From Eutreptiella sp. 'Long Island Sound 2002' (taxonomy: Eukaryota > Euglenozoa > Euglenophyceae > Eutreptiales > Eutreptiaceae), in assembly GCA_964036045.1 (NCBI GenBank), contig OZ038379.1, positions 79,268,929 through 79,332,928 of the forward strand: 64,000 nucleotides of DNA. Direction: 5' to 3'. The notes below the pieces were generated by a model. It was not told the origin of the DNA and did not search any database. It saw only the letters and a list, made by a program, of their open reading frames with translations. Each line of letters starts with the position of its first letter. Positions within the stretch are counted from its first letter, which is position 1. This document shows positions 1,910 through 51,084 of this stretch, in pieces. The position numbers and the translations under genes were made by a program.

Positions 1910-2224
1910 CTAGCAGGGGAAATGCCAGGATTTCCAGTAAAAGCTGGGAGTGAACCAGTAAAAGCTGGGTGTGCCGGAGTGTGACGAACGCCGTAGGGCG
2001 CCGATGTAGGTGCAGCTGAGGAGGTAGGTGCTGGGTGGCTCGCCGGTGCCGGCGCTGGTCCAGGGAGCCCAGTAGTGCTCAGATTTTAAACCAAAGTAGT
2101 CAATTTTTCCAGCTTTTGCTCCATCTCCTCTCCACTTGCTGTCATCATCCCGCTTCCTTTCCTTGACGGCCTTCTTCAGCTCCTTCATCTTGTCCTCCAA
2201 GGACGAAATGTGGCGCCGACAGGA

Positions 2225-2766
2225 GCAGTCCTTGGCGCACTCACCACATGATGGGCATCGCGTGCTTTTTCCTTTACTTCTTACCTCATCAGCCCAAGTG
2301 TCATCACTGGAGTTAGAGTTGGGGAGTTTGGACAATTGCTCTCTGGAGAGGTGAGAATGCGTCGAATCACACCTCATTTCGTCGACATCTTCGTCTTTCG
2401 GACCCCGGGGGCTCGACGGGCCAGCATGCTGTTGGACATTCCGGCGTCTTTTCTCGGCAACGATGGCCATTTGCATTATCACGGCAGCCTGGTGGTCGAA
2501 CTGGTCCATAAGCTCCTCCCAGTCCTCTTGTTCCTGCAATGTGGCGTCGAATCTCAGGCGGCAGCTCTCCCTGATGAACTGGCATGACGCCCTGAACCAG
2601 TCCCTCAGGCGGCCTCGGTAGGTCGCCTCCGCCAGTAGCCAATTCTGGCGGTTCAGGAACTCCTGATTCCAGATTTCCTGGAGGTGATTTTCCCAATATT
2701 CATCAGAAAACTCACGGAGTCCAGTTTTCGACTGCTCTCCTTCGCTGCTGCTGTCTTCAAGATCAG
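2225..2766. repeat. 542-bp direct repeat, left copy
   Basis: Matches 14795-15336 at a constant offset of 12570 with no insertion or deletion. Hand comparison gives about 28 mismatches (about 95% identity). Its right edge abuts the (TTAC)n tail of the non-LTR element exactly, and its left edge continues into the remainder of gag. It is best read as the 3'-side target-site duplication of that element, which would be extraordinarily long. Confidence 0.8.
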
Positions 2767-2782
2767 TAAGTAAGTAAGTAAG
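2767..2782 (-). repeat. (TTAC)4 3' tail of the non-LTR element
   Basis: Four TAAG units on the plus strand (TTAC read in element sense) join the element body, which ends in a GCGGCCGCC block, to target DNA. A microsatellite 3' tail in place of poly(A) is known for several LINE clades. The same junction recurs near 52490-52509 in the opposite orientation. Confidence 0.75.
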
Positions 2783-5290
2783 GGCGGCCGCATCCGCAGC
2801 CTCATCTGACATCTCCTTGTTTGTTTTACATGGTGGCCGCCTCTGGCGAGAAGGAGAGCTCTCCACCATCAGTTCCCCTGGGGACCCCGGTCTCACCTCA
2901 CGGCCGAGACCTTCAACCACGTTCCCTTGGGGCATGACCGGCGGTAGGTTCCCTCCAGTCGCTGCCAGCACGGTTTCAGCTCCTTCCGGTCACCCATCGA
3001 AGGATCCTCCGGCCTTTTCCCCCCTAGCACAGCCTTTTGGGCGCCTGCAGGCAGGTTTCCTGTGGATAGCCCTCGCCGACAGCGGAGCATTTCTCTCTGT
3101 CAGCCACATTCCACCACTCCCCATCCCTCAAGGGTTGGAGAACCCACTCGGCTCCCGGATGCACTTGGGTGTCGTCCATCCACGGCTGGAGGCCAGGGGG
3201 CGACCCTTTCCACGTTTCCCCTGGTCCCGCTCACGCCTGAACCTACGTGTACTCAGGCCATTGACCCGGGGACCTCAGCGTCAACCCTCACCCCTGCGGA
3301 CACCTCACGGCCGTCTCGGAGTTCAGGGGATTTACCCGACTTCCTGTGGCCAGGCTCCCCATGGTTGGCCCATGGCTCACCACTCCATGGCGACTGGTCT
3401 CCCAATCCCACGGGGCTGTTGCTTGGCGCTTTCGGTCTTCCTTCCCATCCCATGTCCCATTCCTCTATGCCACATCCCGTCACCGGCCCATTCTCAGCGT
3501 CCTGTGGACTCCCTACCCCCTCGGGCTGTTGTGCGGCCCCATCCCATCCCCCATCCCGTGTTTATACCCCACCGGGCCGCCAGCAACCCTGTGGCGCGGG
3601 CCCACTGGATTCTTGTCTATCCGGGGACCGTTTCGTGCGCCTAGCACGGGTCGCTCCCTTCCCGCCCCCGCCCCTTTCCCCTGTGCAGTGTCCTCGGCCT
3701 ATCACCCGCTTCCCACGCCGTCCCAGGCCCCTGGGGCCGTCGTGTGGCTCTAGCCACACGCCTCTTTCTGTCCTGTCTCCTTTTCCTTGCATCCCGGTTT
3801 CTTTTCCGGGCCGCCTGCAACCCTCTGGCGCTGGCCCAGCGGATCCGCTGCCTTCCCGGGACCGCTTCGCGTGCCTAGCACTGGTCGCCCCCTTCCCGCC
3901 CCCTTCCGCTTGCGAGGTGTGCTCCCTTCAGGACCTGTGGTGGGTCCCTCTTCCTGGCCCCCGCGCCCCACATTACCCCTGCCTTTCACGCACTTGGTCA
4001 CCCGTCGCTGTTGTTATTGTTCTTTGTTGCTTATATATATATTTGCGCCACCCGCGATCTCTCGTCTGTCCTTTTGCTCCGTCCCGTTCCTCCGCCGCCC
4101 GCTCGCTTTGTGCCGCACGCCCTCCTGAGGCGCTTTGGGGTTTTGTTCGTGTTTTTTGGTTTTTCTTTCCGCCGTGCTTTCTGCCGTGTGGTTCCCTCCT
4201 CCCTGCATGCACGCACAACAACACTGCACAGCCATCTGTCTCGGCCCCCTCTCGGTGCTCCTGTCCCGTCCCATCGCCCTCCTGTGGCGTGGCCCTTGGC
4301 GGTCCCCGGCCATGCCAGGTGGGCGCCCCTCCCCCGCGTCCCACTCATTTAAGTCTTTCGATGATGCTAATCTTCTTTATCCCCTCTCCACCCTCCCCTC
4401 CCCTCTGTCTCCTGCCCACCCTCTTACTGTTGTTCTCCTCCTCTGTGTGCTCTCCGCCGGTCGTTCCCGCGCCATGGCTGTATCCCGCTCGCTCTCACGC
4501 GCATCAGGGCCTCAGCTCTGTCCTCCGACCTGTATGCCGACTTGGGCGGCCTCCCCAGATACCCCTTCAGGGGGACTCCCCCATGGTCCTTCCCCGCCGG
4601 CCGCCCCTCCATCAGTTCCCTGATGGTCGGGCGGGGCGGCCGGTACGGCTCAATGCGGGTCATTGGCATGGCGTTTCTCTGTGCGAGACAAGGTGCTCTT
4701 TTGCGCCATTGTTGGCCCCCTTCTTCCCCCCCCTCCCGCGCCCTGCCCCCTCTGTGTGTCCTTCCTTGGTGTCTTGTCAGCCTTTATTGTTTTTTTTTAT
4801 GTCCCCGTGGTTGCGCTCTCCGCTGCTCCCGCACGCCCTGCGTGTGCCCGCTGTTCTTCTCCGCGCTACTCCTGTCTCGCCGCCCCGTGCCCCCTAACCC
4901 GCCCGTCTCCCCTCCCATCCACCATCTCTCTGCCGATCCTGCATGCATTTTTCGTCCGCCCTCTCTGCCTTTGCCGCGCTGTCACTCGTGTGTGCCACCC
5001 GCGTGCTCTAACCCTGCCCCTCTGTGTCGTCCTTACCCTTTTTTCCTGGTGGCTCACCCACCCTAGTGTTATTCCCTCGGTCCCTGTCTCCCACCTCATC
5101 TGGGATGCCATGGTGCCCAGTGGGGAGGGGGGGGGGGTTATTTGCGGACTGGACTGTGGCCCTGCCCGAGGACTGGCATGACGCTGGCCGCTGGGATTCG
5201 ACGACCGCAATGTTCCTTACTCTGCCCACCCGAGTGAACAGTAGCCCACTGTAGCCGCTGCGGCCCCCGTAGGCCTGTCTCCCGGAGCGG
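2783..5290 (-). other. 3' untranslated region of the non-LTR element
   Basis: G/A-rich in element sense and C/T-rich on the plus strand. The last ~0.9 kb (2783 to about 3690) is shared with 51555-52509. Long plus-strand ORFs here (a 611-codon frame at 3062-4897) are Pro/Ser/Leu/Cys-rich, have no recognisable domain and arise from the skewed composition. I treat them as non-coding. Confidence 0.5.
3574..3910. repeat. Internal repeat in the 3' untranslated region
   Basis: About 105 bp at 3574-3680 recurs at 3806-3910 (CCGGGCCGCC...GCAACCCT..., then CTAGCAC.GGTCGC and CCTTCCCGCCCCC). Only the first copy has a counterpart in the short element near 51560-51690, so the second copy may have been added in the long element. 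Confidence 0.55.
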
Positions 5291-5331
5291 CCATGATGGT
5301 GCTCCACATCAACTCCGGTCGTCCGCGTTGG

Positions 5332-8300
5332 TCACGACCCTGTGCTCAGGATCCCCGCCGCGCAGCCCGGCTCCGTACCGCCGCTCGTCGTACTCCACCA
5401 GCACTCCAGTACAGTACTCCATTCCACTACAGCGTCTTGTCTGGCTTCTCGTTCTGCCCTACACTGCTCGCCGTATCCACGACACGTCCCACGTCCCCCT
5501 GCCCGGGCGCTCCGTCCGCACCCGTCTGCGCCCCCGTACTCCGCCGCTCCATCCGCCCCCGCCGCGGGACCTGTGCCCTCCGCTGGGGGTTCTCGTCTGT
5601 GTCGGCCATCACCACCTCGCCCTCTACCGCCAGCCGTGTCCCTGCCCTTCGCTGCGCACCTGCGCCTCACCGCTCCCTTCCTCCTGTCCTCGTGTCCTTC
5701 ACACCATCCCCTTACCCTCCTCCACCTTCGCCGACTCTCCGTGTCCTCCTCTCCCGCAGCTCTCCTCGCTTCTCGTCTGCCCGTCCCTCCTGCACTCCCC
5801 TGGCCCCTGGCCCCCGGCGCTTCTTGCTCCTGCTCCTGCCCCGTCCTACGCGTCGCCCCCGTACCACCCTCCCCGCTGCAACAGCTCCCGCAGCATCCGA
5901 ACTCTGGGCTTCTTCCCCTTCTCCTGAGAACAGTCCAGGCTCACACCCGGGAGCACCTCTCCCAGCATCCTCCTCCACCGGCTCTCCTCCATCTCAGGCC
6001 CCCTTTCCCCGCGCCTCCCTGCCCTGCCGACCGGGTCGCTGGAGGGGCGGGTCCCCCTCCTCTCCCGCCTTCCCCTCGTCCTCCCCGCCCACTTCACGTA
6101 GCGGACCAGTCCGCCACTTCCACCGCTGTCCACCCCACGACCCTCCAGGGCCCCCTCCGTACCGGCGGCGGCGCATACCGCCGCGGCGGTGGCGACTCCG
6201 AGTCCCAGTCCGCTGGCGTCTGCTCGAGGCTGAGGTTGGCCGGCTACGGCGCCCCCTCCGCTTCCCCTGCTCCCCGCTCCTCCACCCGGCGCCGCTCCCC
6301 CCTCTCCTGCCCCGCCTCCTCTTCCTCCTCCCTGGCCCTTTCCCTGACGGCGACCGCCCCTCCACATCCGTGGAGCGGAGGGTCCCCTTCTGGTTCCGGG
6401 GGGACCCGGTGTGCCCCCCGGGCCACCGCCTCCTCCTCCTCCCGCACCCTGCCCTCTCGCGCCGCAACCTCTCTGTCTCTCTCCGCCAGCTTCGCTGCCT
6501 CCCCCCTGATCTGTCTCCATGCCCTCTTCTGCATCTCATTCTCTTGCTTGGGCGGCATAGCCGGCTGCCTGAACGGCATCAGTGGGGGGCAACCCTCCTG
6601 CCCACCTCCCTCCTCATGTCGTACTTCCTCCTGTTCCGCCCTCTCCACCCTCTCCTGCCTTCTCTGAAGGTTCGCCCACACCCTCTGCAGCCCCTCCACT
6701 GCCTCTGCCTCCCCTCCCTGCGGCCTGCCTGTTCCTTCCGTCCTCCCCTCCGCCACCCTGCCCGCCCCACCCATGATTCTGGCGTCCCTCTCCGTCAGGC
6801 TCCTCTCTGCTTCCCTTATCCTCTCCATAGCCCTCCTGTGCTCTTCCTCCTTCCCTTCCTGCGCCTCCCACGCTGTCCCACCGGCCTGCGGGCACTGCGG
6901 CAGGTGTGTGTGTGGCTGCATGCCCTGGTACGCCGGCGGGGGTGGGTACATCATCCCCATTGCCAGGTAAGGTGGCGGTGGGAATGGTGGGACAATTGGT
7001 GGGATGGCTGGCGGGACTATACCTCCCCACCATCCCAATCCCTTCCCCGGGAGCACCGGGGAGCCCATGTACCCATGGCCATCCTCCTTCCTCTGCCCTT
7101 TGCCTTTTCGCCCCGCTGTCCCGTGCCCCTTGCTGCCCACTCCGTGGAGTCCCGTCTGCCTGCGTTGCTTCCCCTGGAGTCCTCCTCGTACTGCTCCTTC
7201 CCCTTGCGTACCGTGCCCTCTATGCTCGCTCTTACCGCCCTCTACTTGTCCCGCATCCCTGCCCTGCACCGCGCTGCCCGTGTGTCCACTTGGCTGGCCC
7301 CCACTCTCCTGCCCTCCTTCCCGCTGGCCGCGGTGCCCCTCCGCCGCTGCGCTGCCCTGTTCTGCCTGCCCTCCCTCTCTCCGCACCCCGTTACGGGGCT
7401 GCCCGCTGTGCTCCCCTCCCAACCCCTCCAGCCCCCCCTGGCGCCCCGACCCTGTCCTCCCCGACCCCATCTCCAACCGGTAGATGGTGTCCGCTCCCGG
7501 CTCTGGGCGCTGGTGGCGACGGCGCTGCCGCTCCAGGTGCTCCAGCGCCTTGTACCGCGCCGCCTGCTGGCGGCGCGCCTCCATCCCCTCCTCCGGCCGT
7601 ACCGCCGCACTGACCTGTGGGGGCAACCCTGGTCGCGACTGCATGAACAAGCGTTAGGGCTGCGGCCACTGTCGCCCCCGTCCACTCCCCTTCCCCCCCT
7701 TTCCTGCCTGGTGTCCCTTCGCGTGCCCAGCCCCCGACGTCCCCGCCTGCCCTTTCCCTCCCTTGCCTGTCCGTCCCCTCCCTCCGTTGCGTACACTGCT
7801 GTCCCCGCTCCCTGCCGCTCCCGCCGCTGGTTGTCCTTGTCCACCCTTGCCCTCCTCCTGCCTCTGCACTTCCGGGAGGATGGACTTCATGGCAGCCGCC
7901 GGCATATTGGGCGCTGTCGGCTGTCCTGGGCCTCCATCCACCGTGATCCTCCTCGCCCCCTCCCCCTCATCCTCCGACACCACGAGGATGTTGGTGACTA
8001 TTGACTCCCCCCTCCCCATATCCACGCCCGCCATCACATCCGCGATGTTGAACGGGTACGCCCGCCGCCTCACCACCGCCTGCTTCCCCTGCCCCTCTCC
8101 CTTTCCCTGAGCCTCCGCTGCCACCACCTCCGCTCTGCCTCCACTCGCCTCTGCCTGTCCTCCCCTGTCCCCTCCCTCTCCTGTCCCCGCCGCGGCCCCT
8201 TCCCCCCTCTGCCGCCCTGTCGCCCGAGGCCCTTCCCGCCTCACCGTTCCCGGCGTCCAGAGTCCGGAGACGAGGGCGATGACACTTCCGCGGATGTTGC

Positions 8301-8841
8301 TGAGGACGCCGGCGAAGGGGGCTGGGGGGCTGTGTCCGCCTGCATGCGGCCCACCTCGGCCGTCACACCAACCAGCCCCGGCCCCCCGTACCCCCTCACT
8401 GCCTGCGGCTGGCTTCGCTTCGGCTCAGGCTTGTGGGACATCTTTCTGCACACATGGTATCGGGACTGAGCCCTGAGCCTTGTCGCTGCTTCCCCCGCCA
8501 CCCGCGCCCTCCACTCCCACTGTTCGCGCGCCCTACGTGCGTTGTGATCTTGGTGCACCGCGGTTCCTCTTCCCCGTCTACTCCTCCGCGTACTGTCGAC
8601 GTTGCCGGGCGGTCGTCGGCCTCGTACTGGACCTTCTCGTCCTCGTCCCCGCACCGCTGGCCACGCTCCTCTTTTCCGCTTGCGTCTCTTTGTACCCGCC
8701 CCTGCTTCCCGCTAGGTGATCACCGTTATTGTGCTCTCTGTGCTTTCCACTCATCACTTCGCCCCTGGGCCTGTGCCTTGGTCCGCTCTGTGACTCAGTG
8801 CGCCCAGTCCTGGATGCTCCAGTCCATGTGACGGGCGACAC
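5332..8841 (-). pseudogene. Downstream Arg/Gly/Glu-rich ORF of the non-LTR element (ORF1-like)
   Basis: On the minus strand, coding-like sequence runs through several shifted frames: 8841-8640, then a frame starting MSHKPEPKRSQPQ (near 8440), then 8244-7654. After an in-frame TAA it continues as a 468-codon frame (7650-6244), and further pieces run to 5332. The 468-codon frame holds a Pro/Tyr-rich patch (GMMYPPPPAYQGMQPH) and a long Glu/Arg heptad-like coiled coil (HRRAMERIREAERSLTERDARI). A conserved-looking block at 8244-7654 reads YPFNIADVMAGVDMGRGES. Basic, coiled-coil proteins of this sort resemble LINE ORF1/Gag, but the position after the polymerase is unusual. No catalytic domain is recognised. 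The 903-codon plus-strand frame over the same DNA is Pro/Arg-rich and taken as a shadow. Confidence 0.45.
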
Positions 8842-10340
8842 TGCTGCCCCTTCCCCTTCAGTCCCCGGCGGCTCCAGCTGCTCCCCTTTGTGGTGACACC
8901 GTTCACCCGTCCTGCCCTCATATCTGCCTGATTCTCTTTCGTCTGCGTGCCATCAGGCGTTCCCTCTGCTCTTCTCCCTCTCTTTCCTCCCACTTCCGTC
9001 TCTCCCTCAGACCGCCTTGGCCGCCAATCGGGCCGCCTCCGCACTTCCATCTCCGTTTTCTTTGGGTTGTACCTGATCAACGTCATCTCCAGCTGATTTG
9101 TGACTGGATCACGCATGTCTTCCGCCCGCGCCTCCAACTGAGTCTCTCTACACGCCATGCGTTCCTGGAGATGCTCCACCATACGCCGCAACAGCTTGCG
9201 TGCCATGGCATCCGGCGCCATCGTATGTTCCTGGAGTGCCAGCCACAGCGACTTCACAATAACCATGTGCCACAGCCCTTCGCGATGCCCTTCTTTCCCC
9301 AGCTCCCTCTCCACCACGCTTCTGCCTCTCGCACCCTTCTTGAGCAACGAAACGTCCTGATCCCGAACCGGCGGCTCCTCGATGCCCTTATACTGTTCAC
9401 ACCGCATGAAGTGTTCGTATGTTTCTTGCCCTCGGCCGCAGTGGCATCTCATGTACTCCTCCGGGAGGTCCATCCCCTCATGTCTGTACCATCTCATGAT
9501 GGTTTCCCGCACGGGCACCTGGCCCGTGATTGCCTGCAGCCTTCTGGTTTGCGGCCTTTTGGGCAGTGTTTCTGGTCTCAGCACATTGGGGTAGTGGACC
9601 CGCTGTCCCACCTTACCCTCCAAGTACTCGCTCAGCTCTACAACCTCCGGCCCCCCTCGTACTTGAGCTAGCATGTGCACCGACTGTGGATACACTCTTA
9701 GTTCCTGCTTGCCCCTGGCCTCCTCCACCACCCACCTGGCCTTCTCCTCTTCCCCGACCCTTGGAGGTATATGCACCAAGTGGAGGTGCTCCTTTCTCTC
9801 TGGCACCCTCCACTCTGGTTCCTCCTCCTTATCCACTGCTTCTGCCGCCCCATCGGCCTCATGATTCCCCACTCCCGCTCTGTGTGATTCCTGTTTCACC
9901 AGGTGTATGACAAGAGGCACTTTCTTCATCTCCAGCCCGTGCCATATCGCGTACACCTGTCACCCTAGTCCCGTGCCCAGGGCCTCATGTAGCGGCCTGC
10001 TGGCCAGTCTCCTGAGGGATGCCATGTCCGCCTCCGCGTCCACCACCATCCACACTTCCCGTACTTCCTCCCCTATCTTTCCAACCACGTCCGTCACCGC
10101 CTGTACCTCCCCATGGGACGCTGCTCCGTACACCATCTTTTTCACCACGCTCTCCGTCACGTGTCCCACCCTCCTGACCCTTACTGCTGCTGCCCCCGCC
10201 ATGGGCGGTTGTCCTTCCAGACCCGGACCCGTCCTAAAATAGCACCACCCTCTTCTCCGTGGGCTCCGGTATGCGCACCACCTCCCTCGGGTAGTGGCAG
10301 TACACTTTGTGCCTCCCAATGCCATACTCTCGTACCCCAT
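8754..10340 (-). pseudogene. RNase H domain and C-terminal CCHC knuckle of the non-LTR element
   Basis: Two pieces in one frame (10340-9960 and 9956-8754) are separated by a TGA at 9960-9962. RNase H features appear in order: an acidic residue in SHGEVQAV, Asp in VWMVVDAEAD, and near the end QESHRAGVGNHEAD, the usual H..G.GN..AD signature. About 130 residues later CHCGRGQETYEHFMRC (9400-9450) matches the C-terminal zinc knuckle of LINE polymerases (C-x-C-x8-H-x3-C). A Lys/Arg-rich tail ends at a stop at 8754. The upstream end overlaps a different frame at about 10245, so a frameshift separates it from the linker. The TGA would read as Arg if it were CGA. Confidence 0.6.
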
Positions 10341-12067
10341 CCTCGATGCTCAGTTCTCTCACCCCTCTGTACACTGCCCATTTATTGTCCGTCTTGGCCC
10401 TCCAGCCCTTCGTTACCATCACCGCGTGAAACCATGCCCTGTCCCCCTTCGCCCTGCCCTGCTCCAAATATGCCTGTACCAGAACCAAATACCATACCCT
10501 GTCCGCTGGCAACCCCTGGACTGTCAGCCTGATCCTCCTCGAACTCTCTCCACACTTGTGGCCCACTGGCACTATGGGCGCCTCCTCGTCAGGCCTCCCC
10601 GTGTCCGTCATCCGGAAACTCACCGCCACTCCATCATCCTCTTCCCGTAGTCCCTGCACTGTGTCCCATCCCAACTGGACCCCTGTTCTCTTCCCTTCCT
10701 TTTCCTCTTCCCACCAGACCTCCACATCCCCCTGGGCCTCCTCACCCTCCTGCACCTCCTTGGGCAGCCGCAGTACCGGCCCCCACCACTGCCCGGTGGC
10801 GTCCGTAGTGCACATGGTGGCGTTCGGGAAGGCCCATGCCGTCTTACGCAGGACTTGCCAGGGGACCTGCCCCGCCTCCTTGGTGCATCTCCAGCACTTG
10901 TCCCCCTGTCCTGCCCCTTCAGGGATGTTGTCTCTCCGGAACATATCCGCGTGGCCATCATACCACTGCCCGGTCGCACTCTGCACCTTCTCCCTTGGCC
11001 CTTTGAGTCCCAGCAGCGCACACAACAGTATGCCCGGTCTGGCCCTGTCCCTCTCTTCTCTGTCCAGCACCACCCTTTCCTGCTGCGCCCCAGCTCCCCT
11101 CCCGCACCTTGGTTTCCCTCTCTGGATCCCACACAGCGCTACCTACTCGTTCCACATCTTGCGTATCCTCCTGCTCCACCTAGCGCGGTCTTCTTGTCCT
11201 CGCGCTCGCCTCATCATCCACTTGTATACACCCCATTCCACCATCCTGGCGTCGCGATAGAACTTAGCATGGTGCAGCCCCGCCTTCTTGTATTCGTTCA
11301 TATCCTTCCTGCGCACGTGCAGCACCTCCATACTCACCCCTTCCTTCCTGACCCACCGTACAGTCCCATGCGCCGCCCCTCCGAAGTCGGTGTCCGGAAC
11401 AAGGATCGGTCCCCGCCTGCCGCACGTCCTGTTGGTCGCCAGCATGTGCTCTTCCCCCGGCAACACCGCCTGTAGGGCGCGCCACATGCGTTCATTCCTC
11501 CCTGCTGCCAACCGCCTTTGCCGGTGCCACACATAGCGCGGGCACATGTTCTCTTCCTTCTGCACCTCTGCGACCGCGTGATAGCACACCCGTCTCACCA
11601 CCTCTTCCTGATTGTGGCACATCCTGCTCAGCGTCCTCGCCGTGTGTGCCCTGTACGCCTCCCCCGCCGTGGGCATCCCTTCTCCATAGTAGGCTGTCGG
11701 CAACCGCCTCACACACCACGGTACCTCCCTGGGTATCCCATCATACCCTCTGATGAGCCTCGAACTTCTCCCTCCACCCCCTCAAGCTGTTCCCTCCAGT
11801 ACCAGAGGTGCATCCCCTGGTATCCTATCGCCGCATTGAGCACCGGCCGTAGATAGTACAGGGTCGTCTGTACTGTCTGGGGGTGATGCTGTAGGACTAC
11901 CAGCATCGCCCTGAATGCCCTGATTAATCTGTTGGGCAGCCTGACTCCCCCTGCCTCAATGGCCTGCACATGTCCTCTGCCCTCTCCAGCCATGCCACTC
12001 CGTCTCCCACATCCAGTGCCATGCCATCCTCGCCACCCCTCTTCAGAACCGCCGACTTCTCCGTGCT
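10234..12067 (-). pseudogene. Linker/thumb region between reverse transcriptase and RNase H, broken
   Basis: Coding-like pieces in two frames: 11993-11709 (TVQTTLYYLRPVLNAAIGYQ, resembling the region after LINE reverse transcriptase fingers and palm), 11712-11143, and 11073-10234. The last includes a Cys-containing stretch (GDKCWRCTKEAGQVPWQ). Directly after the reverse transcriptase frame a TAG is followed by readable sequence (STEKSAVLKRGGEDG), so the domain originally continued. There is at least one frameshift near 11980 and a TAG near 11143. No separate function is assigned. Confidence 0.4.
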
Positions 12068-13243
12068 CTAGACAAGGTGGTCATCCCTCCCGTACCTCTG
12101 CATCAGGTCCTGCAGCACCCGTTGGGCCTTTTCATCCCGCGCCATGGGTACCGCATCATCCACATACGCCTGCGCTGGCAACGTGTGTGGTGCCCTCGCC
12201 AGCTGCGGATATTCCCGCGGTATCCAACTCAGGGGGAGCATGGCCAGCTTGTACAGGAATGTGCCCTCAACCCCGCCTTGTGGCACCCCGCTACCTGGGG
12301 TTACCCACTCGGTACACCCCTTCTCCGTGGCGACTGTGGACCTCCTTGAGCGCAGGTACTTCTCTACAAAGTCACCGTACGGGAGCCCTAGCTGCCGCAA
12401 CACCTCTTCTATGAGCCTATGTGGTGTGTTGGGGAACGCCCCCTTCAGGTCCACAGACGCCATGAACGCCTCTAAGTCCTCATCATCGAGGTACATGTCG
12501 TACAGGAAGCTTGACTCCTGTGTGGACCCCCCGGGCACGGACCCCCACATCTTATCCGGTATGACCTCCGCCGCATACAGCCGCCGCTGTATCCTCCCGA
12601 AGATCACCATCCAGACCAGCTTGGCTTCCGTGACGGCACAGCATATGGGTCTCCAGTTCCCCGGTCTGAAGTGATCCCCTTTCTTGTACAGGGGCTGCAC
12701 CTTGCCCCCCCATTCCACTGGGGGCTCGCCTGTGCGCAACACCTCTGTTACCCCCCCCCCCAGACCATCCAGCTCCGGCGCCTCTAGGTGCTGGTATGCC
12801 TCCCCCACCAGCTGGTCCACTCCCGGGCTCTTTTTCCCCTTGAGAGCCCGCACCGCCTCCTTAATTTCCCGCAGCGTCACCCTGCTGCGGTGTATGTCCT
12901 CGCTCTGCTCCGCCGTGAACACTCTCGGTAACGCCCTTACCATTCTCCGTGTGATCCCGCTGAGCTCCTGCTGCCCCTGGTTGTGCTGCCTCCTGAAGCT
13001 CTGCGCTAGTTCCTCCAGCACTTCCCTCTTGTTGCCCGTGGCCCTGCCATCCTGCAGTCTCACCGCCCGGACTTCCTGTGGCTTTCCAGCCTCTGCGAGC
13101 TCTCTGATGTACCGTAGCAACTTGTACGACACCGCTCTTTCCATGTACCGCTCATGCTCCGCCACTACCTTCTGGCATATCCTCTCGTGTTCCTCCTCAA
13201 CTGCCCTCCTCGCTACCCGCACCCTCTTCTTTGCCTGTGTCAC
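12068..13243 (-). pseudogene. Reverse transcriptase domain of the non-LTR element
   Basis: A 391-codon frame. An N-terminal charged helix leads into LKGKKSPGVDQL and LYKKGDHFRPGNWRPI (LINE motifs 1-2). These are followed by ASVDLKGAFPNTPH (motif A, first catalytic Asp), GVPQGGVEGTFLYKL (motif B) and AYVDDAVPMA (motif C, YVDD at 12155-12166). All catalytic aspartates are present. It is in the same frame as the upstream endonuclease and separated from it by a single TGA (13253-13255). This makes an original endonuclease-reverse transcriptase polyprotein likely. The frame is cut by TAG just after motif C. The reverse transcriptase assignment is secure; the clade is not. Confidence 0.85.
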
Positions 13244-13252
13244 CTCCGTTTG

Positions 13253-14287
13253 TCACTCTGCCCCCTCTTCCTGTGCCCTTGCCTCGACCTCCTCGTGCTG
13301 CCGCTTCCTCAGGGTGGCTACCAGCCTTTGCAGCTTGGGCTGTGCCTGCGATCCCCCCCGGTGCTTGTTAAACCCGCATACCCTCGCTGCGCTCCTCATG
13401 GCCTGACGCACGTGGCTCCCCTTCCTCATTTTGACGTGCACCCGCTGCCCCCACTGCTGCCACCTCTCATCCCCCTCCTCCGGCCACTTTACCCTTGGCG
13501 GCAGGCTGACGCCTTCTTCGTCCGACCCCTGCTCATCCTCCTCATCGTCCCCTGGCTCTTCCACCTTCACGTCCACTGTCACCATCATGGGGCAATGCCC
13601 CTTCCTGTCCTGCATTTCTTCCGGCCCCACCATATACCCCGCCGTCAGCCCCTTGACCCACCTGGGGTCCGCGTACACGGCGTCTATCCGCGACGGTGTG
13701 CTGCCTTCCGGTGCCGGGTAGTGTGAGGGGCCTGGCGCCCCACTGTACGAAACATCCTGCAGCCTCTTTTTCTCCACGAACATCCGGAGCATCCGAACAT
13801 CCGCCCGCACTTCGCGGTCCACCTCCGTCTCCGCGCCTCTCCTCCGGGGATCGTAGTTGAAGTCCCCAACCACAATGTCTGGCCCCCTCTCCAGCGCTCT
13901 GATGTACTCCATCCTCAGCTGCGCCACATGATTCTTGACCCTCCTCCCATGTGGGAAATGGCAGTTGATGATGACCACCTCTCCATGCTCCGTCGCCGCA
14001 TCATACACCGCCCTTGGTCCCCTCGCTCACACTTTTTTGTCCTCTACAACGCTGAGTCCTCTGCGCACCAACAGCGGCACCCCCTGTGCCCACTCCCGCT
14101 GGTACTCTCTCCCCTCCTTGTCGTACATCTGCGCGCAAACCAGGTTGTCCTTCCCCTTCAACCTTATCTCCTGGTACGCCACCACGTCGGGGTCCGCCTC
14201 ATGCAGCCTCATCTGCTGCCACGCTGCTTTGTCTGCCCGATACAGTGCCGCGGGGTCATTATGGGTGTACAACTTCATGCTTGCCAC
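13253..14287 (-). pseudogene. AP-like endonuclease domain of the non-LTR element
   Basis: The frame starts at an ATG at 14287 (MASMKLYTHNDPAALYRADK), runs to a TGA at 14027-14029 and continues in the same frame from 14008 to 13253. Endonuclease/exonuclease/phosphatase motifs occur in order: DVVAYQEIRLKG (metal-binding Glu), VVGDFNYDPRR (GDFN), SRIDAVYADPRW, and GHCPMMVTVDV in place of the terminal SDH. Such domains nick the target to prime reverse transcription. Read as sense, the TGA joins two natural-looking halves and would be CGA before a C-to-T change. A charged linker leads on to the reverse transcriptase. Confidence 0.8.
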
Positions 14288-14481
14288 CAGCCCTCCCCAT
14301 CCACGCGCAGTTTACCGCTGTCAGCCGGGCCTTTTCCTTCCCCATTTCTCCTTCCATCCTGCCTTCGTCCGGTGCTTTTCTGCGTCTTCCCGCCCGCCCT
14401 CCGCTTCGTTAATCGTCACTTTCGCTTCTTGTTCTTCCGCCCCGTCGACACCTCTTCTCCTTCCAATTCTCTGGCCTCCTG

Positions 14482-14794
14482 CTACGGAACCAGTTGCCCG
14501 TGTATTTCCATCTCTCTACCTTGTAGGCATACCTGCAATCTCTCCAACGGGTACAGCAGTCTCTCCTCATCCCCCTCCCCTTGATCCTCCCACTGCACGA
14601 TGGCGTCCCTTGTCACATGTCCCGTGCGATCTTGTTGTTCGATCATCTCTTCCACCGTTCCCACATACCTCCTCCACTTCCCACTCACCTTGTGCGGACC
14701 ATACACTGTAACCCCTTCCCACACTGCCCCCTGCTCCTCACGGCCCTTTTGTTCCTCCCAGTACCTGACTCTCCTCGTCCGTTTCCTTCTTGGC
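14482..14794 (-). pseudogene. Short ORF remnant at the 5' end of the non-LTR element
   Basis: About 100 codons from the element edge to a stop at 14482. Readable sequence includes YGPHKVSGKWRRYVGTVEEM, VQWEDQGEGDEE and LLYPLERLQVCLQ, the strand-rich pattern of an SH3-like or Tudor-like module. It lies ~200 bp upstream of the endonuclease ATG. It could be the C-terminal end of a lost upstream ORF1, meaning the copy is 5'-truncated, or a small independent ORF. Its apparent first residues come from the flanking repeat and are not native. Confidence 0.35.
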
Positions 14795-15336
14795 GCAGTC
14801 CTTGGCGCACTCACCACATGATGGGCATCGAGTGCTTTTTCCTTTACTTCTTACCTCATCAACCAGAGTGTCATCACTGGAGTTAGAGTTGGGGAGTTTG
14901 GACAATTCCTCCCTGGAGAGGTGAGAATGCGTCAAATCACACCTCATTTCGTCGACATCTTCGCCGTTCGGACCCCGGACGCTCGACGTGCCAGCATGCT
15001 GTTGGACATTCTGGCGTCTTTCCTCGGCAATGATGGCCATTTGCACCATCACGGCAGCCTGGTGGTCGAACTGGTCCATAAGGTCCTCCCAGTCCTCTTG
15101 TTCCTGCAATGTGGCGTCGAATCTCAGGCGGCAGCTCTCCCTGATGAACTGGCATGACGCCCTGAACCAGTCCCTCAGGCGGCCTTGGTAGTTCGCCTCC
15201 GCCAGTAGCCGATTCTGACGGTTCAGGAACTCCTGATTCCAGATTTTCTGGAGGTGATTTTCCCAATATTCATCAGAAATCTCACTGAGTCCAGTTTTGG
15301 ACGGCTCTCCTTCGCTGCTGCTGTCTTCAACATCAG
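14795..15336. repeat. 542-bp direct repeat, right copy
   Basis: Partner of 2225-2766, equal in length. It begins where the non-LTR element's 5' end stops (14794), and continues into gag sequence absent from the left copy. It is interpreted as the 5'-side target-site duplication. Confidence 0.8.
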
Positions 15337-15511
15337 GGAAAGAGGGCAAGTTGGAACCAGATTCACTTGAGGAGGGAGATTCTCGACCGGGTTTAAGGTT
15401 AAATGGGGCCTTCATACAACAACCAGCACAAGTATGAACTCCAGGCCAATGTCTATGACCACAATAAGGACACTCAGAAGGACGATCTTCGGTCAGCTGG
15501 AGAGATGCCAC
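14795..15511 (-). pseudogene. gag: Gag N-terminal fragment upstream of the insertion
   Basis: An open frame without an obvious ATG (it begins at GTG after an upstream TGA) starts with a Cys/His cluster, CPYCGHRHWPGVHTCAGCC, a probable zinc-binding module. An acidic stretch (DVEDSSSEGEPSKTG) and the helical gag segment shared with 2225-2766 follow, up to the Cys cluster CPSCGECAKDC. Beyond that it runs into the non-LTR element. With 2224 to 65 it reconstitutes the order of one gag-like gene, the insertion lying between the CAKDC motif and the coiled-coil part. A lone preceding frame (15759-15493) is not convincing. Confidence 0.55.
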
Positions 15512-16754
15512 GAATTTAACCTCGCGGGGAAGACAAAGTGACTCACGACGAGTGATAGCCCCGCTAAAGCCCGATGATCCAAGGGTGTCCGTGGAGATTC
15601 CAGAAGCAGAGTCATGATTTCCTCTGCTACTATGTCACGGCTGTGTAGTGGCGGATCTTTCTTGTAACTGCGAAGCCTGTAGCCTTGAAGCCCCAGGGGT
15701 CGAAACGCCCGACACTGCCCCTGATATCTCCGAACCCGACTGATCATCTCAAGACCCATATCCAGCCTCTAGGAGCGACATATGCAAAACAATTTGAGGG
15801 TCATTGAACGCCATGGTGGAAGAGGAATAGTCAGAAAACCCGGTCTACAAAAATGGAGCAGACATTAAATTTCGTTGTGCATTCATCAAACATAATGACT
15901 CCTTGCGAAATCCTTCGAAATAATTTACATAATTCTGATTGGGAAATCACGAAAGCCAAATGCAACTCGACGCGCGCTCCCAGGCGACATCTGGCGGCGA
16001 ACCAAAAACCTGAAAACAAGCGGAACATTTACTGCACTAATGTACATCTGAGAATCATTGAAATTCTGATCACATTGATGCATAAATTGCGTGCTGTCAG
16101 ACCGATGCCGGTACAAGGTGGGCCCACCCGACCCGGCCAAGAAGAGCGGGCACACGCACACACGCACGGGACCCAGGCGTGGCGTCCTTCGACCTGCAAG
16201 GGGGGGTGTCGGCGTCCACACAAAAAAGCCCCGATGCACTAACCAATTCCCTCGTCGAACGACGGACGGTACGGAAATTTGGACGCGTCAGTGACGGGGT
16301 CCACACACGCCAGCCAGCGCAGCGCACGCAGCCCAAGACCGACGTCGGAGGGACCCGCCAGGGACAACCCCATCGCGGGGACCCCAACTGGTACCACGCG
16401 GAGCGAGCCCAGCACCCCTGCCTCGGCAGCGGCCAGCGGCAGCCACAATGAGCCCGGTTGTCGGCCGGCCTCAGCGTGCCCCGTGCAGCCGCCCAGTAAA
16501 TCCGGGGGCGAAAGCCCTCAGGATGGAGAAAGGCACCACAGCGTCGGGAAGGCCGACCAGAGCACCGACAGCGACCAGACAGGATGAGGCACGGCGCACC
16601 ATGCAGGACCACGAGGCACGTCAGAGAGGCACGCCGCGGGGCACAACCACGGCACACGGACAGTTGCCAAGCAACAACAGCCGCCGGGTGCCGCAAACCT
16701 GGACAGCGCGCACAACACGCAACGGACCACGGCACGAGAACAGGCGCCAGGCAA
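15512..16754. other. No supported gene
   Basis: 15512-15760 may hold more eroded gag leader. 15780-16100 is AT-richer with no readable domain. From 16100 on, all frames are open by composition (GC-rich, few TA steps) but show no motif. Confidence 0.4.
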
Positions 16755-16984: not shown

Positions 16985-19880
16985 GAACCCGGAACACGCG
17001 ACACCACACACACAACACAGGGCACAACACACCGAGGGAGCACACTGGTGAACAGGAGCCAAGTGGCCCAGGACACCGCACACGCAACACAACACGCCGA
17101 GCGAGCACACTGGTGCACAGGAGCCAGGTCGCCCAGGACACCACACACGCAACACAACGCACCGAGCGGGCACACCGGTGAACAGGAGCCAAGTGGCCCA
17201 GGACACCGCACACAGAACACAAAACCGCAAGCGTACACACCGGTGAGCAGGAGTGAAGTGGCCCAGGACATCGCACACGCAACACGGAGCTGCGAGGAAG
17301 CACACCCGTGAACAGAAGCCAAGTTGCCCAGGACACTGCGCACGCACGACAGCGCACCGAGCGGGCACACCGGTGGACAGGAGACAAGTGGCCCAGGGCA
17401 GCGCACACACAACACAACACACCCAGCATACACACGGGTGAACAGGAGCCAAGTGGCCCAGGACACCGCAAACGCAACACCAAGCGCCAGGCAAGCACAC
17501 CGGTGAACAGGAGCCAAGTGGTTCAGGACACCGTGCACGCAGGACAGCGAACCGAGCGGGCACACCGGTGAACAGGAGCCAAGTGGCCCAGGACACCGCA
17601 CACACAAGACAACACACCGAGCGAGCACAGCGGTGAAAAGGAGCCAAGTGGCCCAGGACACAGCACACGCAACACAAGGCACCGAGCGAGCACAGCAGTG
17701 AACAGGAGCCAAGTTGCCCAGGACACTGCACACGCAAAACCAAGTGCCGAGCAAGCAAACCGATGAACAGGAGCCAAGTGGCCCAGGACACCGCGCACGC
17801 AAGACAGCAGACCGAGTGGGCACACCGGTGAGTAGGAGCCAAGTGGCCCAGGACACCGCGCACGCAAGACAGCGCATCGAGCGGGCACACCGGTGAACAG
17901 GAGCCAAGTGGCCAAGGACAGAGCACACACACAATGCAACGCACCAAAGGAGCACACCGATGAACAGGAGCCAAGGGGCCCACAACACCGTGTACGCGAC
18001 AGAACACACCGAGTGGGCACACCGGTGAACAGGAGCCAAGTGGCCCAGGACACCGCACACACACAACGCAACACATTGAGCAAGCACACCGGTGAACAGG
18101 AGTCAAGAGGCCCAGGACACCGCACACGGAACACAACGCAGCGGGCGAGCACACCGGTGAACAGGAGCCAAGTGGCCCAGGACACCGCACACACACAACG
18201 CAACACATTGAGCAAGCACACCGGTGAACAGGAGTCAAGAGGCCCAGGGCACCGCACACGGAACACAACGCAGCGGGCAAGCACACCGGTGAACAGGAGC
18301 CAAGTGGTTCAGGACACCGTGCACGCAAGACAGCGAACCGAGCGGGCACACCGGTGAACAGGAGCCAAGTGGCCCAGGACACCGCACACACAAGACAACA
18401 CACCGAGCGAGCACAGCGGTGAAAAGGAGCCAAGTGGCCCAGGACACAGCACACGCAACACAAGGCACCGAGCGAGCACAGCAGTGAACAGGAGCCAAGT
18501 TGCCCAGGACACTGCACACGCAAAACCAAGTGCCGAGCAAGCAAACCGATGAACAGGAGCCAAGTGGCCCAGGACACCGCGCACGCAAGACAGCAGACCG
18601 AGTGGGCACACCGGTGAGTAGGAGCCAAGTGGCCCAGGACACCGCGCACGCAAGACAGCGCATCGAGCGGGCACACCGGTGAACAGGAGCCAAGTGGCCA
18701 AGGACAGAGCACACACACAACGCAACGCACCAAGGGAGCACACCGATGAACAGGAGCCAAGGGGCCCACAACACCGTGTACGCGACAGAACACACCGAGT
18801 GGGCACACCGGTGAACAGGAGCCAAGTGGCCCAGGACACCGCACACACACAACGCAACACATTGAGCAAGCACACCGGTGAACAGGAGTCAAGAGGCCCA
18901 GGACACCGCACACGGAACACAACGCAGTGGGCGAGCACACCGGTGAACAGGAGCCAAGTGGCCCAGGACACCGCACAGGCGACACAACACACCGAGCAGG
19001 CACACCGAGAACAGGAGCGAAGTGGCCGAGGACACCGCACACACGACACAAACCACCGAGCAGGCACACAGGTGAACAAGAGCCAGGTGGCCCAGGACAC
19101 CGCACACACAGAATGCAGCATCGAGCGATCACACCGGTGAACAGGAGCCAAGTGGCCCAGGACACCGCACACGCCACACAATACACAGACCGGCCACACC
19201 GGTGAACAGAAGCCAAGTGACCCAGGACACTGCACACGCAACACAATGCACCGAGCCAACACACCGGGGCACAGGAGCCAAGTGGCCCGGGACACTGCGT
19301 GTACAACACAACGCACCGAGCGAGCACACCGGTGAACAGGAGCAAAGTGGCCTGGGACACCGCACACGCAACACAAGGCACCGAGCCAACACACCGCTGA
19401 ACAGGAGCCAAGTGGCCAGGGAGACCGCACACGCGACACAACCCACCGAGCGGGCACAAAGGTGAACAGGAGCCAAGTGGCTGGGGACACCGCACACACA
19501 ACACAAAACACCGAGCCAAAACACTGCTGCACAGGAGCCAAGTGGCCGAGGAAGCCGCACACACAACGAGCGGGCACACCGGTGAACAGGAGCCAAGCGG
19601 CCCAGGACATCGCACAGGCAACACAACACACCGAGCGGGTACACTGGTGAACAGGAGCCAAGTGGCCCGGGACACCGCACCCACAACACAAAGCACCGAG
19701 CGGACACAGCGGTGAACAGGAGCCAAGTGGCCAAGGTCACCGCAAACGCAAGACAGCGCACCGAGCAGGCACACCGGTGAACAGGTGCTAAGTGGCTCAG
19801 GACACAGCACACGGGACACAACGCACCGAGCGGGCACACCGGTGAACAGGAGCCAAGTGGACCAGGACACCGCACACATG
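16985..19880. repeat. Large minisatellite, ~65-bp unit, about 44 copies
   Basis: Units are keyed on GAACAGGAGCCAAGTGGCCC, then AGGACACCGCACAC, ACAACAC, and CCGAGCGGGCACACCGGT. Keys at 17053, 17118 and 17183 give a 65-bp period. The unit has no TTA, CTA or TCA, so all three minus-strand frames stay open. This explains a 1053-codon Cys-rich frame (20038-16877) and other long minus frames, which I do not call genes. Unit variants differ mainly in the A/C-rich middle. Confidence 0.9.
17500..18976. repeat. Higher-order duplication inside the 65-bp array
   Basis: The block 17500-18190 recurs at 18286-18976 with an offset of 786 bp (12 units), including the same variant units (GTTCAGGACACCGTGCACGC, the GGTGAAAAGG unit and the GGGGCCCACAACACCGTG unit). 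A 131-bp dimer is additionally repeated at 18020-18281. Unequal exchange or slippage in multi-unit steps is the simple explanation. Confidence 0.8.
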
Positions 19881-22783: not shown

Positions 22784-23486
22784 AAAACTAATTCTGAAAA
22801 TGCGTCTAGCCGCCTTAGGCGCGTTCGATCATGTGTTGCAAGCAGGCGCGTGTGGAGTGGACAACAAAATCGAAGTTTCCCGAATCCTTCGAGGGGTACA
22901 CGTTCCATGCCAGTGTGTACACAGTATGGGTGCTCCCGACCATGGTCCACAGTTACAGCGCGTGGTGGGGAAAGGTGCACAAGGCCAGCATCTGTGCTGC
23001 ACGGAGGCCATGATGAGTCGGAGGGGACAACGTCAATGCAGGCCTTCGTTCAACTTTCGAAATCTCAGCGAGAGTTGCCAAGTAACGCTGGAGAAGCCCG
23101 TCTTCGCGGCCGACAACCTGGCTAAGCTCTTAGGAGGGGCGTGAAGCGGAATCGGTAACGATCCCCGCATTTGCACTTTTGTAGCAGAGCTTAGCGTCAC
23201 GAAGGTTTCTGGCGCATAGCGCGAAGTCCACGCAAATGACGCAATTTTGCATCAGAAGAGTGACTGAAGGCAGCCAATAGCTGCCGTTACGTGTTTTTAT
23301 TTGGCATTCCCTTTTTATATAGTTAAATTCTGCAGCATAATATATGCGATTTGCGTCGTGTATGTTAACTCTGTTTGTTACGGAATCTGTTTGTCGTTGA
23401 CGTTCAGGTTTGTGTCATATGGGAGGACCGTCCAAGGTTCTGAGAATTATTTGTAGGCTGACACTGGCCTGAACGCCGCATCCCTC
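22784..23486. other. 703-bp insert between 617-bp repeats
   Basis: Its left half is GC-richer and includes one 114-codon plus-strand frame. Its right half (about 23280-23460) is AT-rich. It has no microsatellite tail, no primer-binding-like site and no recognised domain. Confidence 0.4.
22800..23144 (+). CDS. Hypothetical 114-residue ORF
   Basis: Starts at an ATG 17 bp inside the insert (MRLAALGAFDHVLQAGACGV) and ends at TGA. Mixed composition, four Cys/His-containing patches and no transmembrane segment. No family recognised; it may be a chance frame. Confidence 0.15.
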   Translation: MRLAALGAFDHVLQAGACGVDNKIEVSRILRGVHVPCQCVHSMGAPDHGPQLQRVVGKGAQGQHLCCTEAMMSRRGQRQCRPSFNFRNLSESCQVTLEKPVFAADNLAKLLGGA

Positions 23487-25607: not shown

Positions 25608-26333
25608 AGAAAGATGTCCTTGAATTATGCCCTAGGTCTTTTGATGTATTCCTGCAAGTTGGTTTTGTAGTGGAAAACCCCAAACCAAAGCAGCAAGTAG
25701 AGCAAGGACTGAAAATGGATCGAATCAATGAAATCAATGATTGGTTTTGGAATCCAGTGTAACACAGAAGGGCTGCAGATAGACAAAGCAGGTATATGTA
25801 CATAGATTCAATCACAAATGAATAATGCAAAAGGTTTTATATGAAAATTGGTCAGACTCTAGCCTCAGAGGTTGCAATAGGCACTTCATGTGCACTCTTT
25901 TGGGTGAAATGGTGCTGGTTAGGACTGAGGGGCATAGATGTCAGGACCACACAGAAAATGACTTGGCCAAGCAACTGAATTCAGAAACAGTTACAAAGTA
26001 GGACCACAATAAGTGGTAGAATCAATTGAGTATAGGGGTCTTGGGGTTGGAGACCACTTAGGCTTAACCTCCAAGGCCCACAAGCATGGAATGCCTGATT
26101 TATTTTGGTATGACCTCCATGAAGGAAGGTACCTCCGCTCAGTTGAGTGGTAGGGGTGAACTTCATGGGGGGGGCTAGGGTCACAACCCTAGTTACCTTG
26201 AGAAAGTGTACTTTAGGCCACAAAAGAGAGATAAAAACACTTAAGTTTGTCTCAGCATCAACAAAGGGTTTTAAGGGGGGCTTAGCCTGGATCAAGCCCT
26301 CCAAGAAAGACATGGCAGTGACTTTTTCTTACT
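25608..26333 (-). repeat. 3' LTR of the chromovirus (726 bp)
   Basis: Same as 35995-36720 at a constant offset of 10387. Four single-base differences were seen by eye. In element sense the LTR starts AGTAAG and ends CTTTCT rather than TG...CA. Short opposite-strand frames inside are shadows. Confidence 0.92.
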
Positions 26334-26341
26334 CCCCCCTG
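26334..26341 (-). promoter_or_regulatory. Polypurine tract
   Basis: In element sense the bases next to the 3' LTR read AGGGGGG. A purine run at this exact place primes plus-strand DNA synthesis in LTR elements. Confidence 0.7.
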
Positions 26342-26577
26342 GAGTACTAGTTGTTCATGCTAGTAGGACCAAGGAAAAAGGCTCAAATATTCCCAAAATT
26401 ACCTCAAAAAATGCATTAAACTTACCAAAAACATTCTCATCACTTCATAGAAGCCCATCACACTGTATGGACCCTTGAAAAACAGTGTAATGTACCGTGA
26501 ATGATGTCCCTTCGGAGGGGCATTCCTCAAAAGTCGTCGGCGTGGGGCGAAAACCTTTGGAAAGAGTGTGGGGGCAG

Positions 26578-26640
26578 TGGGAATTGAACCCAGGACTCCC
26601 TGTCCAGAGCACATGTGTCTGTCCACTAGGGTACAGTCGA
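26578..26640 (-). ncRNA. tRNA-like sequence with possible pol III boxes
   Basis: In minus sense TAGTGGACAGA resembles an A box and GGGTTCAATTCCCA a B box and T arm, with a spacing of ~35 bases. No acceptor stem can be formed, so it is not a functional tRNA. It may be a SINE-head relic. Confidence 0.3.
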
Positions 26641-27904
26641 ACGCTCTAATGCGGACGGTTATCGCCGTATAAACAGCGTTTTAGTAAACGTCCTGACCAA
26701 GGGCCAGGGCGGAGCAATACTCCCAATGGAGGACACAAACCCCCAGGAGCTGAAAAAAATAGAAAAATGGAACCAGCAGGGAGTGATTCCTGCGGTTTTG
26801 CGGAAGGGGCAGCGATTTAGCAAGTGAAATCGTTGAAAATCGACGAAACCACGCGGGAAATCGTCATTTTTACACATAACTTAAAGTCGCAGACAAGCGC
26901 AAACGAAGCGGACGCCAAGAAAAGGGTTGCGCAAGCGAAAACGGCTTTTGGAAAAGAAGGTATGAGCCGTAGTTTTTGAAGTTTTAAAGAAAATTTTTGC
27001 ACAGTTGCATCAAAATTTTTATAAACTTCAGAGTAAAGTATTCAAAATCAGCCCGCACCACAGAGCAGTTCAACAACCCGTCTCTCAGGTATGTCTGTGT
27101 CACTTCACACTCACGCATTGCGTTCGTGTTGGTTGCTCCGTCAAAACGTTAGGGTTGTTAACGCTGTGCTCGTTGGGGGGTCGGGTGTTCATCTCTCGTG
27201 CTCTGCACAGGTGAAAGCAGGAGTGAAAGGTATGTGATGCGAATGGAGCGCGCAGCGCGCATGTAGGGTTAGAATATGCGCTGTGCTCGCGATGCATGTG
27301 CCTAATCTAGGCATCCACACGCTGTATCGCTTCACCTGTATCCCTAATCCACCCTTGTTTCTTTTCTCACAGGTAAGCGTTTGTACGTGTGCGGCCGTAG
27401 CGTTCAAGTTGAGTTGCTTAAAACGCTTAGGTTTGTTTTGTGTTCGTTTCAATGCGGCATTCACACGATGCATGGTGAGTAAGGTAGGTTAGCCCAGGAG
27501 GAGCTCACCTCCTGGTTGAGTCTGTGGTTAAGCCTCCCTTCCCTGCATGCACATGATGCATTAAAGGGTAGGCCACGCGAATTGCGCACGGTAAACCTTG
27601 TTTAGGTTACCCAGAGGCTCCTCGGTACGTTCTTTAGGAGAACCCGAGGAGTTTCTTAAAGCTTGCTTGCTTGACAGGGGTAGCTGCATCTGCAGCGTGT
27701 TTGCGAACAGCGTATTATAGGTCACACTGAGAAGGGTATAATACCTGGAGTGTGGCTTGGTTCCACAGTCGCAAACGCCCCTTCATCTGCCTCTTTTGTA
27801 CAGGTGGGAGAGGTTAGGGTGATTGGTGCAGCAGCAGCCGCCTTCGGCGGCTACCATTTTTCTGCCCCAGCAAAACAGGGGCGCTGATCACAAATCAAAT
27901 CACT

Positions 27905-28095
27905 GTGCCTCTGCCAGGAGTGGCGAGGACAGTCCGACTTCAACGACATCTGCGCTGTGCACGCAACGAGTGCACCCCTTCCCTCCAAGCCCTAGCAGGG
28001 GAAACGCGTTGTGGCGTCCCCTGTTAGGCCACAGCTGCTTAGGAGCGCTGTGTTCTCTTGTCCTTTTCACAGGAGGGTCGTTAGGACCCATGAGA
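27905..28095. repeat. Dispersed ~190-bp repeat, copy 1
   Basis: The segment with CC(T/A)CCAAGCCCTAGCAGGGG, GTGGCGTCCC, GCCACAGC and a pyrimidine run ending ACAG recurs at 51085-51205 and 51315-51515. It is SINE-sized. This copy travels inside the young chromovirus. Confidence 0.6.
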
Positions 28096-28937
28096 ACTTC
28101 ACCTCCGCAACACCAAGTAGAGTGTGCGTGTAGGAGTGGTAGTCCTGAGTGGGGGCTAGAGCCAGTTGCCCAGTGCTCGCCCACCAGGATGGTGCCACTG
28201 TAGGGTGTGTAGGACCTGTAGGGGGCGTGTCACTGTCCCACCCTTTTCCTGCAATTTTAGCTGGGCTGGTGGGCTGTGACAGTGGTTAGGTTAGTGTTTT
28301 TGGCCACATAGCAAACAGGCGTTTTGCATGCCTTCATAGCTTTTGGCCACCCCTCCCTATAGTAGCCAGGTAGGTAGGGAAAACAATACCTGGACTAACA
28401 CTCTGGGTATTCCCCCAAGGTTTTGCGCCAGCACAGAAATTGGGCGCATAGGGGAGGGGAGACCCGGGGCGTACCCCGTGGCATCAATAAGCCAACCCTC
28501 CAGGGTTAGCAAGGGCGCAGACTTGGGTATAATTAGGACACACCTTCTGCGGCTTGCTCTCAGGACCTTAGGACTAGCACACTCACACATACGTTATGGC
28601 AGGTAAGGGTAAGGTAAACCCTGTAAGGAAGGGTAGAACCCCATGGGTCTGGACCAGTCAGGGGTCCTAACTGTGGGCTCGCTTGTCCCCAAGGAGGGAA
28701 GACACACCTTGCCTCATAACACCTTGCTTGTCATTCCCCCCTGGTGTAGAAAGCCACCGTTCTTCGTTGGCTCACCAAGGTCATTACATTAGGGCAGTAC
28801 CCATGCAACACATGGTCAACAAGGCAAACACGCGCTGGGTGGCTGCAATCTTGATAAGCGGCCATTTGGCTCACGCTGGAAACCATAGGCATGGGTCTGC
28901 AGGGCACAGACAGGGTCAGTAGACTGACACAGGGTAA

Positions 28938-33428: not shown

Positions 33429-33443
33429 TTTAACCCTGGGGGT
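33426..33443 (-). promoter_or_regulatory. Protease-pol junction: stop/start overlap or +1 shift site
   Basis: In element sense the protease frame ends CCC CAG GGT TAA and the pol ATG begins one base after that TAA. Either ribosomes restart at the ATG, or they slip +1 on the run of five C. The sequence alone cannot decide. Confidence 0.5.
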
Positions 33444-33741
33444 TTCTTCTTAGAAAGTCAGTGCCAATGACAATGTCAAAGGCGTCAGTGTCCAACACTC
33501 TGCAGTGTTGGGTCACGGTTTCGTCGCCCAGACATATGGTCACATCGACCCCCCCCAAGGAATGGATGGTACGCCCATCCCCTACTCTTATGGCCACAGT
33601 CTTGGTCTTCCTGAAAGTTTTAAGCAGGCGCCGGGCCACTATGGAAAGTGTTGCACCGGTATCAAGCACTGCTCCAAAAACCTGATCCCCGATTTTCACG
33701 AGGATCCAGAAAACCAAGTCCTCCTCTTCGGAGCCGCCCCC
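33430..33741 (-). CDS. pro: Retropepsin-type protease of the chromovirus
   Basis: In the same frame as gag, directly after its UAG. The first residues are GGGSEEEDLVFWILV, then the aspartic protease motif AVLDTGATLSIV. The flap and C-terminal strands follow, with FDIVIGTDFLRR near the end. The length (~103 codons) fits a retropepsin monomer that works as a dimer to cut Gag and Pol. There is no ATG before the catalytic motif, so expression must come from reading through the gag stop. The usual Ile/Leu-Gly pair before the last helix is present as VIGTD. Confidence 0.85.
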   Translation of the reverse strand, partial: GGGSEEEDLVFWILVKIGDQVFGAVLDTGATLSIVARRLLKTFRKTKTVAIRVGDGRTIHSLGGVDVTICLGDETVTQHCRVLDTDAFDIVIGTDFLRRNPQG

Positions 33742-35916: not shown

Positions 35917-35984
35917 TATGGACTTGTTGTTGAGCTTTTGTTCTGCACTTCTCAGGGTCGGTTCAAAAGGTCTCAAGGGACTGT

Positions 35985-51050: not shown

Positions 51051-51084
51051 CGCTTGTCTGACAGAGAGCACGTATACACAGCAC

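Follow-up and report, generated by a model that had tools for sequence, protein, structure and literature searches.

Probable target-site duplications of 0.5-0.7 kb around two (TTAC)n-tailed non-LTR retrotransposon insertions in a Eutreptiella contig

Within a 64,000-nt stretch of contig OZ038379.1 from Eutreptiella sp. 'Long Island Sound 2002' (the window), a non-LTR retrotransposon (element 1) lies between two direct repeats of 542 bp. LINE target duplications are normally about 5-20 bp, their length varies among LINEs, and shortness is not strictly defining. The Rte-1 element of C. elegans, described by Youngman in 1996, is said to be surrounded by a direct repeat of ~200 bp. The question raised by this locus is whether repeats of such a length were made by the insertion itself, as the initial annotation proposed in calling them a giant target-site duplication, or came about in some other way.

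The two copies of the repeat were located at positions 2225-2766 and 14795-15336, both on the minus strand. They align over 542 positions with 0 gaps and 28 mismatches (94.8% identity), in agreement with the gapless match and roughly 28 mismatches noted at the outset, and the blastn alignment reaches 545 columns with 29 mismatches. At the repeat edges, identity was 97-100% in the inner 30 bases and 20-30% in the outer 30 bases. Element 1 occupies the 12,028 bp between the copies (2767-14794, minus strand, edges taken from the repeats). On this sense strand the copy at 14795-15336 lies upstream of the element and directly adjoins its 5' end, and the (TTAC)4 tail (2766-2781, minus strand; the last C may belong to tail or target) is followed directly by the copy at 2225-2766. 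The earlier placing of the repeats against the tail and the 5' end was confirmed on the minus strand.

The outer flanks of element 1 indicate what the repeated sequence was before the insertion. When the upstream flank (15337-15634), one 542-bp copy and the downstream flank (1910-2224, running to the stop), all on the minus strand, were joined, they gave one open frame of 384 codons followed by a stop, and either copy could be used. Because a single copy joins the outer flanks in this way, the 542-bp repeat is best read as target DNA. The flanks had been described as different parts of one gag-like gene; that they form one frame holds, whereas "gag-like" is a label by appearance, with 396-1739 and 1913-2989 assigned to no Pfam family and 14741-15634 matching only below the cut-off. 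The frame also bears on the reading that the repeats are LTR-like terminal parts of the element itself. They are long, direct and of LTR-like size, and a 725-bp LTR pair is present in the same window; however, the 542 bp sit in a frame that continues beyond the repeat on both sides. A further reading is that element 1 was inserted, with an ordinary duplication or none, at the junction of a tandem duplication that already existed. Since 542 is not a multiple of 3, such a tandem pair would have shifted the 384-codon frame.

From their divergence of 5.2%, the two copies are unlikely to be a simple duplication made by the assembly. Of the 28 mismatches, 12 were at first, 9 at second and 7 at third codon positions; 4 were synonymous, near the 6.2 +/- 2.2 expected under random change. 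For this reason the mismatches look neutral, which suggests that they accumulated by drift once the gene had been split, and not as two working genes diverged. The copies carry no stop (chance 0.30) and no indel, so some weak constraint may have acted on them.

The same counts are relevant to an origin by recombination. A crossover between two copies of the element that had inserted 0.5-0.7 kb from each other, in duplicated segments or on homologues, each with its own short duplication, would leave one element flanked by copies of the interval, and the repeats would end exactly at both element ends, as they do here. A related model has been published for another class of element: in PMC5488345, human HML-2 proviruses are described with direct repeats around the insertion that reach 250 bp in validated and 450 bp in estimated cases, and the authors discuss pseudo-TSDs produced by recombination as a possible origin. 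HML-2 resembles the present insertions in these long direct repeats, although, unlike them, it is an LTR element. If two working gag-like genes had been brought together by a crossover, an excess of synonymous differences would be expected, and only 4 of 28 were observed; two dead copies would have drifted neutrally as well. For this origin, both loci in the 64 kb (the second, element 2, is described below) would each need a pair of neighbouring insertions and a crossover, and we regard it as unlikely compared with duplication at insertion.

Element 1 is an APE-type element with an APE-like endonuclease encoded upstream of the reverse transcriptase (RT), and it is decayed, with in-frame stops and frame changes. 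The endonuclease region (13256-14311, minus strand) matched PF03372 at 34.3 bits with an in-frame TGA read as X (cut-off 24.5), and its C-terminal ORF alone (13256-14026) gave 22.3 bits, under that cut-off. The RT region (12071-13252, minus strand) matched PF00078 (RVT_1 type) at 53.9 bits, above the cut-off of 29.6. Five PDB sequences matched this RT at E<1e-3, four of them LINE-1 ORF2 protein and one an RNA-directed DNA polymerase; human L1 ORF2p was among them at E of about 1e-5 to 1e-4. In pattern searches with the RT, 2 stretches of viral contigs and 32 stretches of genome contigs were matched and none was a relative, in sets that may not include the source genome. A 39-base pattern from the 3' end had no match in the viral contigs. 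A dinoflagellate spliced-leader motif was also looked for and had no match, with up to 3 mismatches allowed.

Three in-frame stops checked in element 1 (14027-14029, 13253-13255 and 9960-9962) were all TGA. Reassignment of TGA as a sense codon was rejected because an intact pol frame of 1,503 codons in a Ty3-type element of the same window contains none, and the TGAs of element 1 look like decay rather than a different code. An RNase H motif suspected by eye near 9.8-9.9 kb was not borne out, as Pfam returned no family for 9501-10349 with TGA read as X. No unusual RNA fold was seen in the last 300 nt of element 1 (z 0.63). The sense strand is purine-rich, at 0.56-0.72 in 400-bp bins, and the content drops to 0.44-0.48 beyond 15.4 kb; on the low side the shift, to 0.53-0.56, is weak, with 0.53-0.57 both outside and at the edge. 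This shift in purine content is the sole independent marker for the 5' edges of the elements, and element 1 may be truncated.

The initial annotation had proposed, as a check, to see if other copies of this 3' end are bordered by direct repeats of 0.3-1 kb with a length varying by locus. When the window was compared with itself, the matches of positions 2000-16000 at E<=1e-5 included one other copy of the 3' end, and it is indeed bordered by repeats of ~0.7 kb. Positions 51591-52510 align with the opposite strand of 2765-3668 at 80% identity (753 of 937 columns), and the homology ends at the (TTAC)n tail, giving a defined 3' end common to independent copies. The second insertion, element 2 (49715-52508, plus strand, 2,794 bp), carries a (TTAC)3 tail at 52494-52505 (plus strand) and consists of ~0.9 kb at the 3' side homologous to the 3' end of element 1 and a 5' part that does not match element 1. 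Element 2 may represent a non-autonomous relative. Its 5' part holds a diverged internal duplication (49720-50301 / 50503-51046, 74.5%), the first unit of which starts 5 bp from the 5' edge, and a recurring CTGGATCATCC motif at five sites in 49720-51046.

The direct repeats of element 2 were found at 48995-49714 and 52509-53178 (plus strand), the latter beginning at the tail. They are identical in 562 of 723 columns (78%) with 56 gap columns. Identity at their edges was 0.80-0.90 inside and 0.27-0.40 outside, less sharp than at element 1. About the first 230 bp of the repeat is filled by a CTGTCGC-type array that recurs in the window, which leaves a clean duplication of ~450-480 bp. Scattered 11-bp arrays of this type were located at 45930-46542, 48821-48958, 49047-49084 and 52576-52618, some of them within the target repeat. 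The repeat of element 2 and the 542-bp repeat of element 1 are unrelated, with a best match at E 0.3.

This last result speaks against terminal repeats belonging to the element, because elements 1 and 2 have a common 3' end and unrelated repeats. By eye, no primer-binding site (PBS) or polypurine tract (PPT) was seen at the inner edges, unlike in the Ty3-type element of the window, and of the other traits of LTR retrotransposons, repeats common to the family were lacking and a short duplication outside the repeats (4-6 bp in such elements) was seen, by eye, only at the Ty3-type element. We consider LTR-like terminal repeats extremely improbable. The Ty3-type element itself (25609-36720, minus strand) has open frames of 757-758 and 1,503 codons, with RT and RNase H above the cut-off and integrase below it. 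Its 725-bp repeats (25609/35996) differ at 3 positions, and the element is probably young. By eye, PBS-like and PPT-like sequences stand at its inner edges, and a 5-bp duplication, GCAAC, lies outside, provided that the 3' LTR extends one base past the repeat. The 725-bp repeats were rejected as another giant duplication since they behave as LTRs with a short duplication outside them. The Ty3-type element is thus a control within the window, in which ordinary short duplications occur too.

Insertion at the junction of an older tandem duplication has some support in the window, where other duplications were found at 22167-22783/23487-24103 (94%) and, with a period of ~3.1 kb, at 58879-63632. 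It would nevertheless need an insertion exactly at the junction twice, in unrelated targets, and together with the frame shift expected at element 1 this makes it very unlikely in our judgment. The first of these duplications consists of 617-bp direct repeats (582 of 618 columns) around a 703-bp insert without recognised features (22784-23486). The insert has no tail, and by eye no PBS, PPT, short outer duplication or LTR hallmark was seen.

Duplication at insertion can also be compared with the ages of the two loci. The divergence of the repeats gives insertion ages of 0.027 and 0.088 substitutions per site, 0.115 in sum. The distance between the 3' ends of elements 1 and 2 is 0.169 substitutions per site, greater than this sum, which fits what would be required if the repeats date from insertion. 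At both copies of the 3' end in the window (2/2), a long direct repeat particular to the locus begins at the tail and stops at the 5' junction, measuring 542 bp in one case and ~0.7 kb in the other, where a short duplication of about 5-20 bp would be usual. Together with the joined 384-codon frame, this supports the giant target-site duplication first proposed for element 1. Based on two loci, in a window with other duplications and with the copies at element 2 only 78% identical, we consider it likely that the repeats are genuine target-site duplications and that the second strand was primed 0.5-0.7 kb away from the first nick.

The best explanation is that a single APE-type LINE family with a (TTAC)n tail gave rise to both insertions, by target-primed reverse transcription. 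With a distant second nick, this process explains the geometry in one step. One strand would be cut at the tail end of the future duplication and the element RNA copied from this first nick. A nick in the other strand, at a distance of 0.5-0.7 kb, would then prime second-strand synthesis, and displacement and filling-in of the long stretch between the nicks would give two copies. At element 1 the two target nicks would have been ~540 bp apart, we infer. The distant nick could come from the element protein or be an unrelated one made by the host, the latter as PMC5223499 proposes for L1 in cells without nucleotide-excision repair (NER). As a more tentative proposal, which we hold to be somewhat less probable than even, LINE insertion in the source organism routinely primes the second strand 0.5-0.7 kb from the first nick, for this (TTAC)n family and perhaps for other inserts, such as the 703-bp insert at 22784-23486, which shows the same layout of an insert between long direct repeats. 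The second nick would then not be tied to the element endonuclease but would come about through host repair or through an element complex that spans several nucleosomes, and this would be the usual condition in a natural genome.

Abnormally large duplications have been described for new L1 inserts in NER-deficient human cells, with up to 6,765 bp among the rows listed in PMC5223499, and the authors propose a distal unrelated nick for them. The half-kilobase duplications described here are consequently no length record for LINEs. The initial annotation gave ~126 bp, in rotifer R9, as the longest; this figure stands for a natural family, as R9 of bdelloid rotifers is the non-LTR family cited in PMC6895275 for unusually distant cuts (126 bp), but not as an overall record. 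The present elements resemble L1 in NER-deficient cells in being APE-type LINEs, and the L1 duplications in that source span hundreds to thousands of bp. Unlike these cases, which come from cell culture and repair-deficient lines, the insertions here have persisted in a genome and both (2 of 2) are long; in HeLa cells, L1 duplications over 100 bp were never more than 10% of recovered events, according to PMC5223499. R9 is rDNA-specific according to the cited title, whereas an APE endonuclease, duplications of 542 bp and ~0.7 kb and unrelated targets were found here. No rDNA target was recognised here, with no Rfam match at the gathering threshold anywhere in the window.

The elements share an APE endonuclease, an RT and a tetramer tail with the RTE-clade element SR3 of Schistosoma (TAAG in SR3, TTAC here). 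According to PMC1291365, SR3 has a length of 3.2 kb, a 177-bp 3'-UTR and duplications of 10-12 bp. Elements of this clade have a short 3'-UTR and are about 3-4 kb long in total, unlike element 1, which is 12 kb long and has about 9.3 kb between the end of its RT and the tail.

Among the open-licence papers searched, no natural LINE family was found in which duplications above 126 bp recur, and within this literature long duplications look new as a repeated trait of insertions kept in a natural genome. The second half of LINE integration is called very poorly understood in PMC6895275. A family that regularly leaves duplications of 0.5-0.7 kb would be a natural system for studying it, and every such insertion would duplicate half a kilobase of the host's DNA. 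One survey gathered duplications of 5-30 bp (PMC2912911) and another of 10-49 bp (PMC13295347). Surveys with these limits could not notice cases like the present ones, so long target duplications may be commoner than thought.

Several other repeats were identified in the window. The ~3.1-kb tandem duplication at 58879-63632 (58879/61993) is old, its identity being 72% over 861 columns and 64% over 500 columns. Two large minisatellite arrays were also found, one at 17023-19877 with a 65-bp unit in about 44 copies and the other at 39387-41207 with a 47-bp unit in about 39 copies.
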